Shown: positions 24,450 through 32,314 of the stretch, one piece after another
Layout: every line of letters starts with the position of its first letter
Position numbering within the stretch: the stretch's first letter is position 1
NCBI RefSeq assembly: GCF_009177065.1
Contig: NZ_WEZF01000002.1
Coordinates: forward strand, 434,001-498,000
Length of the DNA: 64,000 nt
From: Tautonia marina
GTDB taxonomy: Bacteria > Planctomycetota > Planctomycetia > Isosphaerales > Isosphaeraceae
Direction: 5' to 3'
Notes under the pieces: model-generated
Databases searched by the model: none
What the model was told of the DNA's origin: nothing
Seen by the model: the letters and a program-made list of their open reading frames with translations, nothing else
Program-made: the position numbers and the translations under genes

Positions 24450-24811
24450 CCTAACGGCGAGCGCGGGGGCGCGCCGAGCGGGTCCTCAATGGCACAGCTG
24501 GACGCCGCCGGTCGTCTTGATTCCCTGTGGCTCGGCGACGCGGAACGAGGCACAGAGGGGAATCGGACATGACGCAGAGACGCGGAGGCGCAGAGAAGCG
24601 GGAGAAAAGAGGTGAAAGAGCGAGAAGAGAGAGGAGAGAAAAGGGATGAGGAGACTCCGAAGACGTGACGCCGACTCCGAGGAAAGGGGAACCGCAAGAG
24701 GCGCAATCGGCCAGCGATCGGGCGCCGGTCGCTTGACCCGGGAGCCGGATCGCGGCACGTTGGAGCACGAAGGCGGCCCCCGGGCCGGTCGATCGAGCCT
24801 TGCGAGAGGGG
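24450..24811. other. Gene-free divergent region with purine-rich tract
   Basis: This lies between the HAD gene and the ATPase-SPFH fusion. Its centre (24571-24657) is a repetitive, almost purely purine strand. The frames crossing it on the minus strand read as low-complexity Ser/Leu/Arg peptides and are not genes. No clear promoter was found for the fusion gene. Confidence 0.45.
24571..24657. repeat. Purine-rich repetitive element with CGCAGAGA/CGCGGAGG units
   Basis: Starts with GACGCAGAGACGCGGAGGCG, then runs into about 60 bases of nearly uninterrupted A/G. Imperfect 8-9 base units repeat (CGCAGAGA, CGCGGAGG, CGCAGAGA). Similar CGCAGAG-type intergenic sequences are, in my experience, dispersed in planctomycete and other genomes; this is memory, not a search. 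Confidence 0.45.
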
Positions 24812-27800
24812 ATGGGCCTCGTGCACCGCGAATATCACCCGGACGACATGCAACACCTGCGGGCCCATGCCTTTGAGGCAGCCGGCGCGCATGATGACCA
24901 CGAACAGCATCACCGCGACGAGCACCTGAGGCTCTATCTGTTCACGGCGTTGCTTGGGGCGCTGATCGGGCTCGATCTGGTGCTCTGGTCTTTCGCGCCG
25001 ACGAGCTGGCGGGCCCCCTGGGGGGTGAGCCTGATCTGGGTGGCGGCCCTGGTCGGCTCGGCCCGGATCGTGTATCAGGCGCTGGAAGCGCTGGTCAAAG
25101 GGAGGGTCGGGGCGGATGTGGCCCTGGCGGTCGCGGCCCTGGCGGCACTGGCGTTGCGCGAGCCGTTCGTGGCGGCGGAGGTCGTGTTCATCGCCATGGT
25201 GGGCGAGGTGCTGGAGGCGATCACGGCGAACCGGGCGATGAAGTCGATTCGACGCCTGTTCGACCAGGCCCCGAGGGTGGCTCGGGTGCGCCGAGACGGC
25301 CAGCTTGTTGAGGTTCCGCCGCACGAGGTCAAGGCGGGAGAGGTGGTCGTGGTCGCGGCCGGTGAGCGAATTCCGGTCGATGGGGAGATCGTTTCGGGTC
25401 GAAGCACGGTCGATCAGTCGGCGTTGACCGGCGAGTCGATCCCGGTCGATCGCGGCCCCGGCGAGGACGTGTATACGGGGACGATCAACCAGTTCGGTCA
25501 GATCGAGGTGCGGGCTGATCGGGTCGGGCACGAATCGACGTTCGGGCAGGTGTTGAAGCTGGTGGCCGACGCCCAAAGGCGGAAGGCGCCGATCCACCGG
25601 ACGGCGGATCGCCTGGCGTCGTATTTCCTGCCGGCGGTCTTCGCGGCGGCAACGATTACCGTGGTGGCGGGGTTGCTGCTGGGCTGGCCGGATACGGGAC
25701 GGCGAGCGGTGGCCGTGCTGGTGGTGGCCTGCCCGTGTGCCCTGATTTTGGCGACCCCGGCCGCCGTGATGGCAAGCATGGCCTGGCTGGCGAGGCATGG
25801 GGTCGTCATCAAGGGGGGGGCGGCCCTGGAACGAATGGCGCGGTGCGACGCGATTGCCTTCGACAAGACGGGGACACTCACGCTCGGCACGCCGGAACTG
25901 GTGACGGTCGAGTCGTTTGATGATCGAACGGCCGACGACTTGCTCAGGCTGGCGGCCTCGGCCGAGCGAGGGGGAAGGCATCCGCTGGCCGATTCGGTCG
26001 TCCGGGAAGCCGATCGGCGCGGGCTTTCGGTGCCCGAGGCGAGCGACATTGTGGCCATGCCAGGCGCGGGAGTCGAGGCCCGCGTGGTCGATCCGGGGGG
26101 GGCGGAGCGGTCGGTGATCGTCGGCAATCGCCGTCTGATGATCGAGCGAGGGCTGGCACTGGATGCCACCGTCGAGGAGGGGATCGCCCGGCTCGACGGG
26201 ATCGGCCAGACCCCGTTGCTCGTGGCGGAAGCAGGGCGGATTGTCGGCCTCCTGGGAGCCCGAGACACGGTGAGGCCCGAGGCCCACGATGTCATTCACG
26301 ATTTAAAACACTTGAAATTCACCCTCATCGCGCTGTTGACCGGCGACCGCAAACCAGCGGCGGAGGTGGTGGCGAAGAAGGTGCATCTGAAGACGGTCGA
26401 ATCGGAGCTGCTCCCGGCGGACAAGGCGGCCTGGATTCGGGAGCGCCAGGGAGAAGGGCGACGGGTGGCGATGATCGGCGACGGGATCAACGACGCTCCC
26501 GCGCTGGCGGCGGCCGATGTCGGGATCGCCATTGCCGGGCCGGGCGCCGACCTGGCGGCCGAGGCGGGCGACGTGGTGTTAATGAATGATCCGCTGAACG
26601 TCCTGCCCGACTTCGTGAAGCTGTCTCGGGCGACGGTGCGGATCATCCGGCAGAACATCATCCTGTTTGCGTTTGGCCTGAACGCGGGGGCGGTGTTTCT
26701 GGCCTTCCTCGGCGTGCTTGGGCCGGTGGCAGCGGCGATCCTGCACCAGATCGGGTCGCTCTTGGTCCTGCTGAACGCGATGCGGTTGCTCGGCTTCGGC
26801 GACTGGCACGAGATGCCTCCGTTCCGGCAGATCCGAGCCTTCGGCCGGGCGATCGACGCCTGGGACGATCGGCTCGACCTGGGCCGGGTGGTCGATCGGG
26901 CGATGAGCCACTGGCGAGGCGCGCTGATCGGACTGGCGATACTCGGCGCGGTGGCGTATGCAGGGTCGGGGCTGACGACGATCGGCCCCGAGGAGGTCGG
27001 ACTGGTGAGCCGGTTCGGTCGGTTCGAGGGCACGATCGATCCGGGCTTGCACCTGCGATGGCCGAGGCCGATCGAGCGAATCGTGCGTCTGGAGCCGGAT
27101 CGCGTGCGAGGGGTGTCGATCGGATTCCGGACGATCGAGGTTGAGCGCACCACGGACGGCTTCCGCTGGGAGAGTGGGCACGATCGTGCCGACGCGAGGG
27201 CGACGGAGGAAGCGCTGGTTCTGACCGGAGATGGTCGGCTGATCGAGCTGACGGCCACGGTCGAGTACCGGCTCGGCGCGTCCCGAGATCACTGGAGGAT
27301 CGCAGCCTTTGGAGTGGATCGCGCGGAGGAGGCGTTGCAGTCGCTGGCCGAGGCGAGCGTTCGGTCGGTCATCGGCCGACGACCGCTGGATGCCTTGATG
27401 ACGGACCGCCGGGGAGACGCCGAGCGGGCCTCGACCGAGGAACTCCGCCGACGGGTCGCCGAGGCGGGGCTCGGGCTGGAGGTCGTGGGGGTGACGTTCC
27501 GGGATGCTCATCCGCCATTGGCGGTGGTGGATGCATATCGGGATGTCTCGCGTGCCAATCGCGATGCCGAGGCCCAGGTGAACGCCGCGCTCGCCCAGCG
27601 TGCCGAGCGATTGGCCGATGCTCGGGGACTGGCCGCCGAGACGCTGGCCCAGGCCGAGGCGGATCGTCGATCGTCGGTGGCGGTTGCCTCGTCGTCGGCC
27701 GCGTCGTTTTTGGCCCTGCAATCGGCCCGCACGTCGGCACCGAAGCTAACCGACCACCGGCTCTATGCCGACGCGGTCGAGGCCGCCGTGGCCGATCGGC

Positions 27801-27949
27801 CGAAGCTGATCCTTGACCCGTCTCGGGCCGATCGCCGCCGCCATTTGATCTTGGGGGAACCGGCAATCTCCGGATGGCTCGGCGATCCCGAGCGATTGCA
27901 GGACGATCTCCCGCGCACGCCAACCGCCGAGCCGGAGCCATCGCCGTGA
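24812..27949 (+). CDS. P1B-type heavy-metal ATPase fused to an HflK-like SPFH domain
   Basis: Residue numbers count from a TTG at 24800; I list the ATG at 24812, and GTG 24821 and ATG 24848 are alternatives. The N-terminus is His-rich (H31-H42 with seven His/Asp pairs) and lacks a CXXC metal-binding domain. Membrane helices lie at about 46-66, 76-97, 103-118 and 122-142. The actuator TGES motif is at 210-213. Helix 6 carries CPC at 311-313. Next come the phosphorylation motif DKTGT (355-359), HP (394-395), GDGINDAP (560-567), and helices at about 618-638 and 640-664 with HQIGS at 649-653. An extra helix (about 706-725) then leads into a band-7 domain from about 727 with 'IGPEEVGLVSRFGRF' and PGLHLRWPRPIE, typical of HflK, and a helical tail. 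The ATPase should export a soft or transition metal; the fused part should oligomerise. Confidence 0.9.
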   Translation: MGLVHREYHPDDMQHLRAHAFEAAGAHDDHEQHHRDEHLRLYLFTALLGALIGLDLVLWSFAPTSWRAPWGVSLIWVAALVGSARIVYQALEALVKGRVGADVALAVAALAALALREPFVAAEVVFIAMVGEVLEAITANRAMKSIRRLFDQAPRVARVRRDGQLVEVPPHEVKAGEVVVVAAGERIPVDGEIVSGRSTVDQSALTGESIPVDRGPGEDVYTGTINQFGQIEVRADRVGHESTFGQVLKLVADAQRRKAPIHRTADRLASYFLPAVFAAATITVVAGLLLGWPDTGRRAVAVLVVACPCALILATPAAVMASMAWLARHGVVIKGGAALERMARCDAIAFDKTGTLTLGTPELVTVESFDDRTADDLLRLAASAERGGRHPLADSVVREADRRGLSVPEASDIVAMPGAGVEARVVDPGGAERSVIVGNRRLMIERGLALDATVEEGIARLDGIGQTPLLVAEAGRIVGLLGARDTVRPEAHDVIHDLKHLKFTLIALLTGDRKPAAEVVAKKVHLKTVESELLPADKAAWIRERQGEGRRVAMIGDGINDAPALAAADVGIAIAGPGADLAAEAGDVVLMNDPLNVLPDFVKLSRATVRIIRQNIILFAFGLNAGAVFLAFLGVLGPVAAAILHQIGSLLVLLNAMRLLGFGDWHEMPPFRQIRAFGRAIDAWDDRLDLGRVVDRAMSHWRGALIGLAILGAVAYAGSGLTTIGPEEVGLVSRFGRFEGTIDPGLHLRWPRPIERIVRLEPDRVRGVSIGFRTIEVERTTDGFRWESGHDRADARATEEALVLTGDGRLIELTATVEYRLGASRDHWRIAAFGVDRAEEALQSLAEASVRSVIGRRPLDALMTDRRGDAERASTEELRRRVAEAGLGLEVVGVTFRDAHPPLAVVDAYRDVSRANRDAEAQVNAALAQRAERLADARGLAAETLAQAEADRRSSVAVASSSAASFLALQSARTSAPKLTDHRLYADAVEAAVADRPKLILDPSRADRRRHLILGEPAISGWLGDPERLQDDLPRTPTAEPEPSP

Positions 27950-28024
27950 GTGACCACGGGATGGACCACGAAACCCTCACACATGCCTTCCTGAAATCGT
28001 TTGATTGATCATGAAAGGTCTCCG

Positions 28025-29038
28025 ATGCGTCGATCCTCGGTTATCGCCGCCCTGCTGATATTCGTCGTGGCCGTGCTTCTGGTCGCGGCGCGGTCGATCG
28101 TGGTGGCGGATGAATCGCAATATGTGCTCGTAACCAGCTTCGGCCGTCCGGTCGTGCTGTACGGCGATGATCCGGGAGAGGCGGGCCTGCACGCCAAATG
28201 GCCGTGGCAAGGGGTCTGGTCGATCGACCGCCGCCTGAAGTCGTTCGACACGAGCACGAGGGAAGTGATCACCGGGGACAAGAAGAATCTGGAGATCGCC
28301 GGGTTCGTTGCCTGGAAGGTGGCCGATCCGATCACCTTCCTCCGCGCCGCCGGATCGAGCGAGGCAGCCGAGGCGAGGCTGGAGGAGCGGATTGCCTCGG
28401 CGTTGAGCGATGCGATCGGCCGGAGAGAACTGGAGACGCTCGCCTCGACCGATTCGACGGTCTGGGCGCTCGACGCCGTGACCGGGGAGGTGCAATCGGC
28501 CGTGGCCGAAGCGGCAAGCGAGGAGTTGGGGGTCGCGGTGGTGGACGTGAGGCTTCGCCGGTTCAATCACCCGCTGGAGGTCCGGCCGGCGGTGTTCGAT
28601 CTGATCCGGAGCGAACGCCGACAGGTGGCCGCGCAGGTCCGCGCCGACGGGGAAACGAAGGCCCGCACGATTACCAGCCAGGCCGAGCGGCAACGGGAGG
28701 CGATTCTCGCCGAGGCCGAGGCCGAGGCCGACCGCATCCGAAGCTCGGGAGAGGCCGAGGCCACCCGCATCCTGAACGAGGCCCACGCGACCGACCCGGG
28801 CTTCGCCGAGTTCCTGCGGACGCTGGAAACGTATCGCTCGTTGCTCGACGGCCGGGCGACGGTCGTCCTGTCGGCCGATAGCCCGTTGCTGAGGCTCTTG
28901 AACCAGGGGCCGGGATCGGAGGTCCTGCAAGCTCCGGCAACAGCTTCCACGCCGACTCCTCTGGCCCAACCGACACCGGCTTCGGGTGCTCCGGTTGCTG
29001 CGACCGATCCGAACCCGTCCGGGGAGGACGAGGAATGA
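28025..29038 (+). CDS. HflC-like SPFH/band-7 membrane protein
   Basis: The ATG at 28025 has AAAGG 6 bases upstream. The 337-residue product has one N-terminal membrane helix (about 5-23). A band-7 domain follows, with QYVLVTSFGRPV and GLHAKWPWQGVWSIDRRL, which match HflC (usual 'RFGKV', 'GLHFKxPF'). The Glu/Ala-rich coiled coil with QAERQREAILAEAEAEADRI is classic HflC. A Pro/Ala/Thr tail of about 45 residues is extra. In E. coli HflK and HflC form a cage around the FtsH protease; no FtsH gene is present here. Next to the ATPase-HflK fusion, it probably pairs with that fused domain. Confidence 0.9.
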   Translation: MRRSSVIAALLIFVVAVLLVAARSIVVADESQYVLVTSFGRPVVLYGDDPGEAGLHAKWPWQGVWSIDRRLKSFDTSTREVITGDKKNLEIAGFVAWKVADPITFLRAAGSSEAAEARLEERIASALSDAIGRRELETLASTDSTVWALDAVTGEVQSAVAEAASEELGVAVVDVRLRRFNHPLEVRPAVFDLIRSERRQVAAQVRADGETKARTITSQAERQREAILAEAEAEADRIRSSGEAEATRILNEAHATDPGFAEFLRTLETYRSLLDGRATVVLSADSPLLRLLNQGPGSEVLQAPATASTPTPLAQPTPASGAPVAATDPNPSGEDEE

Positions 29039-29952
29039 GCCGTCGAACACGGATCGCAACAACGATGGGCCTGACGAGCCTGGTCGTCCTGATCGTTCTG
29101 GCAACGGGCCTGGTGGCGGTCGAGCCGGGCGAATCGGTCGTCGTCCGGCGCTTCGGTCGGGTGATTGATCGGCCGATGGGAGCAGGGTTGCACTGGGTCG
29201 CCCCCCTCGGGATCGACCGGATCGACCGCGTTCGGACGGACGAAGTGCGACGTCTGAGGCTTGGGCTGGCCGGCATTCCCGGAGCCGCCGAAGCCCCCGG
29301 CGCCGGTGAGTTTCTCTCGGGCGATCAGAACGTGCTGCAAGCGGAAGTGGTCGTCCAGTACCGAGTGGCCGATCCGGTGGCGTTCGTGGTGGGGGTCGAT
29401 CGGCGTGAGGAGGTGCTGGCCGCGCTCGGAGAGGCGTCGTTGAGTCGGGCGCTGGCCCGTCGGGGGATTGACGATGCGATGGGAGGCGATCGGCTGGCCG
29501 TGGCCGTCGAGGTGGCGGAAACCTTGCAAGACGACTCGGAACGGCTCGGGCTTGGGCTGGCGATCCTGGGGGTGAATCTGACCGAGGTTCGTCCTCCCGA
29601 GGAAGTCCGACCCGACTTCGCCGCCACCCAGGCGGCCCGGAGTGAAGTCGATACGAGGCTCCGCGAGGCGCAGGGGCTGGCCGATCGTCTGCTGGCCGCC
29701 TCGGCGTCGGAAGTCGGGGCGATTCTCGACCGCGCCCATGCCGCGGCGGAGCGCTCGGTGATTCTCGCGCGGTCGCGGGCCGACAGGTTCCGATCGCTGG
29801 CGACCGAAGTGAACCGAGCCCGCCCGATGACCGTTCAGCGGATCTATCTCGACACGATTCGAACCCAGTGGCCGAGGGTCGGACGAACGGTCGTCCTTGC
29901 GCCGGACGAACCCCTGGATCTCAGTATCCTCGGGCCGGTAGACGAGCCTTGA
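29035..29952 (+). CDS. Third SPFH/band-7 protein (HflK-like)
   Basis: Overlaps the HflC-like gene by 4 bp (ATGA), so the two are translated together. It has one membrane helix at about 10-29. The band-7 region contains 'EPGESVVVRRFGRV' and 'GAGLHWVAPLGIDRI', the HflK-type pattern, followed by a helical tail of about 120 residues. At 305 residues it is shorter than E. coli HflK (about 420) and lacks its Gly-rich N-terminus. With the fused domain, the locus encodes three band-7 proteins in a row, where HflKC has two. Confidence 0.88.
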   Translation: MSRRTRIATTMGLTSLVVLIVLATGLVAVEPGESVVVRRFGRVIDRPMGAGLHWVAPLGIDRIDRVRTDEVRRLRLGLAGIPGAAEAPGAGEFLSGDQNVLQAEVVVQYRVADPVAFVVGVDRREEVLAALGEASLSRALARRGIDDAMGGDRLAVAVEVAETLQDDSERLGLGLAILGVNLTEVRPPEEVRPDFAATQAARSEVDTRLREAQGLADRLLAASASEVGAILDRAHAAAERSVILARSRADRFRSLATEVNRARPMTVQRIYLDTIRTQWPRVGRTVVLAPDEPLDLSILGPVDEP

Positions 29953-30325: not shown

Positions 30326-31240
30326 ATGCCGACCCCGATTCCGAGCCCGAGGGGCCGTCGCCTGTCCCGAATTCTGCTGGCGGCGTTGCTGACGCTGCCG
30401 CTCTTGTGCGTCGGCACGATCGGACTGATGCCGACCGTTGCGATGGCCCAGGAGGACGTGCCGCCTCCACCGGCTCCGGAACCGGAGGGTGCCCCGGCTC
30501 CCGAGGCTGCTCCCGCGCCCGAGCCGGAACCGGAGGCGTCTGAGCCGGCTTCGGCCGAGACCACGTCGGGAAGCCCGGTTCGAACCAAGTCGGGATTGCA
30601 GTGGTTTATCGAGTCGTCGGGCATCATCGGCGGCCTGATCATCATTCTGTCGATCACTCTGGTGGCGATGATCATTCGCCTGTTCCTGGAGTTCCGGCTC
30701 AAGGAAGCGGTGCCGCCGCAACTGGTCGACCTGCTCGATAACGCGATCCGAGAGAAGAAATTCCAGGAAGCTTACGACGCCTGCCGTGAGGATAATTCGT
30801 TCCTGGCCCGGCTGGTGCGGACCGGCGTGGCCAACATGCCCAACGGTCGAACCGAGGCCAAGGAAGCGATGAACGCGACGGCCGAGGAAATCGTGGTCGA
30901 TATGGAGTCGAAGAACAGCTATCTCGGCACGATTGGCACGATCGCCCCGATGCTCGGCCTGCTCGGAACGGTGCTGGGCATGATCCTCGCCTTCCAGGAC
31001 CTGGCGACGGTCGAGGGGGTGCAGGTCGATCCGACGAAGCTGGCCGGGAACATTTCGCTCGCGCTGGTCACGACCTTCGAAGGGTTGATTGTGTCGGTGC
31101 CGGCGATCTTCTTCTTCGCCTTCTTCCGGAACCGGATCGTCTTCATCGCGACCGAGACGACCAAGATCGCCGATCGCACCATCAACGCTTTCTGGCAAGC
31201 CGCCAAGCAGCAGCAAGGGGTCACCCGGACCGCCACCTGA
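30326..31240 (+). CDS. MotA/TolQ/ExbB proton channel family protein
   Basis: Forms, with ExbD-type subunits, an inner-membrane proton-driven motor. It has a signal peptide (about 1-41, ending AMAQ) and a Pro/Ala/Glu-rich spacer (about 43-80). The ExbB core has helices near 95-115, 200-222 and 240-262 and the segment 'GTIAPMLGLLGTVLGMILAF', strongly conserved in TolQ/ExbB. The cleavable signal plus long acidic spacer is seen in many planctomycete and Bacteroidetes homologues but not in E. coli ExbB. GGAG lies 10 bases before the ATG. Confidence 0.92.
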   Translation: MPTPIPSPRGRRLSRILLAALLTLPLLCVGTIGLMPTVAMAQEDVPPPPAPEPEGAPAPEAAPAPEPEPEASEPASAETTSGSPVRTKSGLQWFIESSGIIGGLIIILSITLVAMIIRLFLEFRLKEAVPPQLVDLLDNAIREKKFQEAYDACREDNSFLARLVRTGVANMPNGRTEAKEAMNATAEEIVVDMESKNSYLGTIGTIAPMLGLLGTVLGMILAFQDLATVEGVQVDPTKLAGNISLALVTTFEGLIVSVPAIFFFAFFRNRIVFIATETTKIADRTINAFWQAAKQQQGVTRTAT

Positions 31241-31284
31241 GCCGAAGCCCGAACCCGGTGCCACGCGAGGAGGCCCGACCGACC

Positions 31285-31752
31285 ATGCCCCGACCCAAAC
31301 TGCACAACGTCAAGTATCAGCCCGACCTGACGCCGCTGCTCGACGTCGTCTTCCAGCTCATGACCTTTTTCATCATGGTCTCGAACTTCAACCAGGAAGT
31401 GTATGACCAGCGGGTCCGGCTCCCGGTGGCGGGGTCGGCCCGACCGATTCTCAACCCGGCCGAGGACAAGCTCGTCCTGAACATCGACGAGACCGGCCGC
31501 CTGCTGGTGGCCAGCCAGGCTCTCAGCGCCGACGAGGCACTCAAGCATATTCGCTTCCAGGCCGACCTGGCCCGCCTCAATGCCGACGCCGCCGGCGTCA
31601 CGCTCTCGGCCGGAGAGCCGCTGCCCACGACCGTGATTCTTCGGGCCGATCGCCAGGCCCCGTTTACCGAGGTCTTCCGGCTCATCCGGGCCTGCCAGGA
31701 TGTGAATTTCTCCCGGTTCGACCTCCGAGCCCTCAGTGCACCAACTTATTGA
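31285..31752 (+). CDS. ExbD/TolR family protein, first copy
   Basis: The ATG at 31285 has GAGGAGG 11 bases upstream. The 155-residue protein has one membrane helix with the conserved proton-relay Asp in LTPLLDVVFQLMTFF (about 16-30). A periplasmic domain of about 110 residues follows. It starts 44 bp after exbB and must be co-transcribed with it. The N-terminus KYQPDLTPLLD is typical of ExbD. Confidence 0.9.
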   Translation: MPRPKLHNVKYQPDLTPLLDVVFQLMTFFIMVSNFNQEVYDQRVRLPVAGSARPILNPAEDKLVLNIDETGRLLVASQALSADEALKHIRFQADLARLNADAAGVTLSAGEPLPTTVILRADRQAPFTEVFRLIRACQDVNFSRFDLRALSAPTY

Positions 31753-31849
31753 CGGACGAAGCACGATCGGGTCGGGAGAGCAGACAACACTTGCTCCTTC
31801 TCTCAGCCCATTCTGATGCTGCCAACGCCCGCCCCCGGAGCAGCCCCTG

Positions 31850-32314
31850 ATGTTTCGACCGCGTCAATCGACCGAAATTGAAGTCCCGCTGACTCCCATG
31901 CTCGACGTGGCCTTTCAGCTGCTCACGTTCTTCATCCTCACGTTCAAGCCCGCGCCGATGGAGCTGCAGTTTGACCTGAACCTGCTGCCGACCACTCCTC
32001 AGACCGAGCCCGAACCGGAACCGCCTCCTGAGGAGAGCCCCTCGGACGAACCCCCGGCAATCCGATCATTCCAGGTGACGTTGCTCTCGAACAACACGGG
32101 AGAGTTGACCGGAATCGAACTGGAGGAATTGCGGTTCGAGAACCTTCCCAGCCTCCGCGATCGGATTAAAGGGTTGCTTGAAGACCCGGACTATGGATTC
32201 GATCAGGCACTGATCCGGGCGCATCCGGATCTTCACTGGGAACACCTGGTTGCGGTCTTGAACATGTTCTCCGACCTTGGGCTAACGAAGGTCAACTTCA
32301 CTGAGATGAACTGA
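31850..32314 (+). CDS. ExbD/TolR family protein, second copy
   Basis: A divergent second ExbD of 154 residues. The membrane helix holds [17 protein letters not shown], with the conserved Asp. The periplasmic part contains a Pro/Glu-rich stretch (about 53-70) and little similarity to the first copy. GGAG lies 9 bases before the ATG. Paired unequal ExbD subunits are common in planctomycetes. They may form a heteromeric D-subunit pair within one ExbB pentamer. Confidence 0.9.

Follow-up and report, generated by a model that had tools for sequence, protein, structure and literature searches.

The window analysed here, 64,000 nucleotides of Tautonia marina (contig NZ_WEZF01000002.1, positions 434,001 to 498,000), contains on its forward strand an open frame (24800-27949, 1049 amino acids) in which a P1B-type ATPase continues through a linker and an extra transmembrane helix into an HflK-like SPFH domain. 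It is followed by genes for HflC and for a third, HflK-like SPFH protein, here called HflK3, whose gene shares 4 bases with the end of the HflC gene (Table 1). Pfam places E1-E2_ATPase at residues 157-333, Hydrolase at 350-573 and Band_7 at 727-933 of the frame; the NCBIfam model for heavy-metal P-type ATPases is matched with 568 bits against a cut-off of 346, and the second gene passes the curated hflC model TIGR01932 with 163.6 bits (cut-off 134.4). The ATPase carries CPC, DKTGT, HP and GDGINDAP; across 61 aligned fusions, preselected for a near-complete frame and a start motif, no variation is seen in CPC, DKTGT, GDGxND or the His of HP. The first-pass annotation of this DNA had described one frame with P1B motifs, an extra helix and an HflK-type domain, and Pfam, NCBIfam and AlphaFold agree with that description.

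Table 1. Features of the ATPase-SPFH locus, in coordinates of the window
Feature	Position	Strand	Basis or remark
P1B ATPase-HflK fusion gene	24821..27949	+	most likely start GTG; alternatives ATG 24812, TTG 24800
His-rich N-terminus, begins VHREYHPDD	24821..24931	+	
P1B ATPase domain	25115..26788	+	NCBIfam, frame residues 106-663; structure
Extra helix before SPFH domain, HflK-type transmembrane helix	26912..26965	+	AlphaFold, frame residues 705-722
HflK-like SPFH domain and the long helix after it	26975..27826	+	frame residues 726-1009; Pfam, NCBIfam, structure
HflC	28025..29038	+	hflC model, Pfam, structure
Third SPFH protein, HflK-like (HflK3)	29035..29952	+	Pfam, NCBIfam, structure

The fusion had been read from ATG 24812; its most likely start is GTG 24821, because [M/V/L]-H-R-E stands at this position in 31 of 34 homologous fusions (the exceptions are L058, L059 and L060) and GAGAGGGG lies upstream of the GTG.

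A frame of such composition could be suspected of being an assembly or frameshift artefact, and breaks inside the ATPase do occur in two relatives (L113, L118) and in G014 (L065). A scan of the genome collection with a profile of the junction gave 101 confirmed relatives, and all counts out of 80 given here refer to the best 80 of these. In 70/80 relatives a near-complete ATPase and an SPFH domain share one frame, while 8 more are cut by a contig end; at 1e-30 the junction profile matches in 136 of the 297 genomes of the class, where all listed rows except that of G012 extend beyond the extra helix. Three homologues from the same genus retain both the fusion frame and the gene order, and in comparison with them codon position 3 is the most divergent in every segment, with the least contrast in the linker. 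The single frames and class-wide matches show that the fusion is not an assembly join, and together with the codon bias they led us to reject the artefact, whose probability we regard as negligible. One of the observations named in advance as fatal to the fusion, homologues always encoded as two proteins, was not made, and the conservation of the joining of exporter and HflK is as good as certain.

The SPFH part could still be a passive anchor or vestige, the fusion serving only to ensure equal expression. Within the genus its amino acid identity (0.68-0.84) is indeed below that of the ATPase (0.81-0.95), with the linker at 0.58-0.75. The excess of divergence at codon position 3 extends to the SPFH segment too, and its partners are retained even where they are unlinked, which makes a passive role very improbable.

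All 59 genomes first searched match the query somewhere, many merely as ordinary P-type ATPases; a fusion was counted only if both parts lie in one frame, as in 34 of the fetched loci. By record title 78 of the 80 relatives are Planctomycetota, while L119 is titled Bacteroidales and L149 carries no phylum name. The fusion loci titled Candidatus Kuenenia (L139, L145, L148), like the Bacteroidales one, probably belong to mislabelled or contaminated metagenome bins. In the phylum sample the junction profile at 1e-15 matches 26/392 genomes; in only 5 of them does the match run along the entire junction within a long frame, and in the rest it is confined to the HflK side. No plasmid record among the best 5000 matches covers 80% of the fusion.

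The genes for HflC and the third SPFH protein lie 3' of the fusion in 43 of the 80 relatives (L118 among them; in six the HflC start is more than 400 bases away), and HflC is the sole partner in three. For 13 relatives less than 2.6 kb of sequence is left, and L141 and L150, in which the contig cuts the fusion, were excluded. Adjacency is not the only form of association: in six genomes (G038, G056, G043, G047, G419, G264) the fusion stands alone and HflC and HflK3 are paired at another site, in G051 the linked partner is HflC and HflK3 is located elsewhere, and in eight (G000 to G003, G011, G028, G041, G053) the trio is linked, so that all three genes are found in 15/15 fusion genomes checked, a chosen set and not a random draw. 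This co-inheritance of unlinked partners supports the earlier proposal that the fusion, HflC and HflK3 form a hetero-oligomer, which we consider probable, although the genes are not always adjacent.

What could be the arrangement of such a protein in the membrane? The AlphaFold model of the fusion has a mean predicted local distance difference test score (pLDDT) of 83 and a predicted template modelling score (pTM) of 0.64, which makes the individual domain folds reliable and leaves their mutual placement uncertain. The ATPase part fits the CopA and ZntA structures, and the extra helix spans model residues 698-715, which are residues 705-722 of the 1049-residue frame. Modelled alone (mean pLDDT 84.8, pTM 0.56), the SPFH half fits HflK best; it shows the HflK fold, an SPFH domain with a long C-terminal helix, and aligns with the HflK chain 7vhq_E at Z 17.0 with a root-mean-square deviation of 11.6 over 267 residues (Foldseek 1.9e-18); other HflK and stomatin chains tie or nearly tie with it at Z 14-16, and prohibitin and vault proteins are also among the matches, as is expected for the fold. 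Among solved structures, the SPFH half, HflC and HflK3 have their best relatives in HflK and HflC. P1B ATPases end in the cytosol, and the additional, ninth helix would therefore place the SPFH domain in the periplasm. This is the side on which the SPFH domain of HflK is found (PMC12005517; papers given by PMC number are cited from excerpts). A mapping of the FtsH contact residue Arg191 of HflK (PMC12048511) by way of an alignment was dropped, as a different residue came out at that position.

SPFH proteins also act as scaffolds of membrane microdomains (PMC2636767), and the present ones might merely form a lipid microdomain that clusters the pumps, with no closed cage. We consider this quite unlikely, given that the SPFH half resembles the cage-building HflK and that a third dedicated SPFH gene is retained.

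The P1B ATPases CopA, ZntA and those of the P1B-4 type share with the fusion all catalytic motifs and the CPC in M4, and are without its C-terminal SPFH part. The best solved relative of the ATPase part is the cadmium translocating P-type ATPase 7qbz, which we take to be the P1B-4 protein sCoaT. CPC and an Asn in M5 are present in all 19 fused ATPases compared, and M6 has His-Gln in 17 (HQxxS) and His-Glu in 2 (HExxS). The P1B-4 subtype is characterized by SPC and HEGxT and P1B-2 by Lys in M5 and Asp in M6 (PMC8880997); neither the former motifs nor the latter pattern is found in any of the 19 fused rows, and no metal was therefore assigned. Sister operons encode CDF, SO_0444-type and ZntA-like proteins, from which our guess would be zinc or copper.

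Another view of the fusion is offered by its counterparts within the phylum, where fusions of HflK with other exporters were sought. The profile of the HflK part matches in 196/392 genomes, and 56 regions were fetched, 16 from the phylum junction matches and 40 from HflK-part matches chosen for long frames; because of this selection, the counts per module class are not frequencies. With spurious frames removed before grouping, three kinds of N-terminal extension of HflK remain besides the P1B ATPase. Most numerous among the fetched loci is a multi-transmembrane module (33 loci, including L156, L160, L164-L171, L175, L179, L184, L187-L195 and L197-L205), with HflC in 31 and a third SPFH gene in 28. 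In 26 of the 33 a P1B ATPase is encoded separately on the same strand; where 5 kb or more of downstream sequence is available, this holds for 22 of 27. The module has no Pfam family over cut-off in the eight loci tested and, for the N-terminal piece of L170, no NCBIfam match. The second module, in 11 loci each with HflC and a third SPFH gene, matches NF033936 ('SO_0444 family Cu/Zn efflux transporter') throughout, ten of them over the 300-bit cut-off and L159, which is truncated by its contig, with 271.5 bits; Pfam ArsP_1 is found in 7/7 tested. The third is a cation diffusion facilitator (CDF) in three loci, again with both partners in all and with a same-strand P1B ATPase in two; the three modules score 101-115 bits in Pfam. 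Two of them were tested in NCBIfam and lie over the CDF cut-off, and in both of these fusions the HflK part exceeds the hflK cut-off (186 and 218 bits). CDF and SO_0444-family exporters, here the transporter parts of HflK fusions, are known as stand-alone proteins, and the phylum also has SO_0444-type matches in short frames (e.g. 356 amino acids in G061). SO_0444 itself owes its annotation as a copper/zinc efflux protein to the fitness of mutants, with complementation given as the evidence (PMC3219624). As judged from their family matches, three unrelated metal-exporter families (P1B ATPase, CDF, SO_0444) are joined to HflK at the same place, a finding that goes beyond the first-pass annotation. 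A role of the fusion in metal export is likely.

Two features of the multi-transmembrane operons may be recorded here. A motif like FGxDLRxSWAL often stands upstream of the HflK helix in these fusions. Their separate ATPases (e.g. L165:2175-4136, L195, L205) are without CPC in M4 in 11 of the 18 aligned, having CPG (4), CPS (3), CPT (2) or TPC (2) instead, which suggests that the ion site may have changed.

Since the exporter families are unrelated, they would have been joined to HflK separately, whatever the tree of the HflK domains. In a quick tree of 112 such domains, support was assessed by the Shimodaira-Hasegawa-like approximate likelihood ratio test only (SH-aLRT, with 95 as the mark), and of 109 inner branches 40 are open. 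One group is formed by the P1B-fused domains (99) and another by those fused to the multi-transmembrane module (99). Both join with 10 of the 11 SO_0444-fused domains at 92, under the mark, while the CDF-fused domains and the SO_0444-fused L183 lie outside the other fused domains, poorly resolved. The third SPFH proteins of the P1B and multi-transmembrane operons cluster (95), and 17 of 18 HflK rows from two-gene operons form one group (100). From these groupings the N-terminal modules now present seem younger than the three-SPFH operon itself and would have been swapped. In a quick tree of the ATPases (LG+G4) the 18 rows from multi-transmembrane operons form one group (100) and 18 of the 19 fused rows another (99), with L153 apart and all 19 together at just 65; the two ATPases of CDF operons are placed with other P1B rows that show the Lys/Asp pattern. 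A derivation of the fused ATPase from the separate one of the multi-transmembrane operons was considered and finds no support in these separate groups.

We hypothesize, with a probability of roughly 0.6, that the fusion builds a metal-exporting P1B ATPase into a periplasmic cage of the HflK/C type, formed together with HflC and HflK3. The three SPFH proteins would make up a ring or dome in or beneath which several pumps are anchored, and at this cage the pumps would spend ATP on the export of zinc, copper or a similar ion from the cytosol. Such a cage would cluster the exporters and set their lipid surroundings, and the metal that they export may be retained or guided by it. Eight repeats of three subunits, each with one pump, would add up to an assembly of 24; this is arithmetic and not evidence. 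It is conceivable, though doubtful, that the locus represents a wider planctomycete class of cage-coupled metal export, with discharge into a periplasmic chamber walled by three HflK/C-type subunits that would serve as a metal-handling compartment of the membrane. Such a class would have arisen repeatedly, each time by fusion of an unrelated exporter (P1B ATPase, CDF, SO_0444 family) with one and the same cage subunit.

The trio might instead, as the first-pass annotation also considered, be the quality-control cage of this lineage for FtsH, a zinc protease, with the pump carried along so that FtsH can police it or to supply metal close to the protease. HflK/C of E. coli encloses FtsH in a 24-subunit assembly, closed or nautilus-shaped (PMC12048511), and the T. 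marina genome has two FtsH genes over cut-off and one strong HflC. This explanation appears unlikely to us, as it does not account for the presence of several unrelated exporter families, and of no other identified kind of protein, at this place.

Several observations weigh against a cage built for metal export. FtsH may be the client instead. The model leaves the position of the pump relative to the SPFH domain unfixed, and neither HflK-like part reaches the cut-off of the curated hflK model TIGR01933 (159.4 bits): residues 726-1009 of the fusion score 150.7 bits, just below it, and HflK3 131.8. The earlier question whether the fusion is always followed by HflC- and HflK-like genes is answered in the negative, as 19/80 relatives, including L113, lack both partners for at least 2.6 kb. 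Matches to the junction are absent from 15 of 45 genomes of the host's family, several of them 99-100% complete. No separate ATPase gene lies near any of the 11 SO_0444-HflK operons, and the commonest module among the fetched loci, in 33 of them, is of no known family, so that an exporter role may not extend to all modules.

How does the proposed cage compare with known systems? With HflK/HflC-FtsH of E. coli the locus shares the HflK-like domain, HflC and a single helix before the periplasmic SPFH domain, the helix and side being predicted here. It differs in that HflK continues from a P1B ATPase and that three SPFH genes take the place of the two-gene hflK-hflC operon; plain two-gene operons are also present in the phylum. 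The 24-subunit FtsH cage is that of E. coli (PMC12048511); a cage of the trio is proposed. A precedent for an SPFH dome over membrane transporters is that of stomatin, which encloses AQP1 and UT-B (PMC12407830, a preprint); there the clients are non-covalent, the SPFH family is another one and the setting is the human red cell. No transporter-HflK or P-type ATPase-SPFH fusion was named in the literature searched by title and the beginning of the abstract, nor in the excerpts of PMC2636767, PMC7159879 and PMC10936438.

The role of SPFH cages beyond FtsH is an open question, to which a natural covalent link contributes by naming a client of the cage, here metal exporters of three unrelated families. 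With exporter and cage subunit in one protein, a gating, clustering or protective role of the cage towards transporters becomes directly testable. The search for a metal-handling compartment in the periplasm could turn to planctomycetes, and SPFH proteins may also have clients among the stand-alone metal pumps found elsewhere.

Apart from the trio, the roughly 25 largest clusters of recurrent neighbours consisted mainly of frames that overlap or lie antisense and of genes in local synteny, such as the TolQ/ExbD-like ones. Downstream of the trio (30326-32314 of the window) lie TolQ/ExbB-like and TolR/ExbD-like genes, below their family cut-offs, and a similar gene is present in 5 other related loci, probably by local synteny. 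The source genome encodes two further SPFH proteins, at C2:274053-274568 (L031, 44.6 bits) and C5:192801-193325 (L032, 30.3 bits), far under the hflK cut-off, and G041 has a second pair of HflK-like and HflC-like genes (C64, L250) besides the trio.

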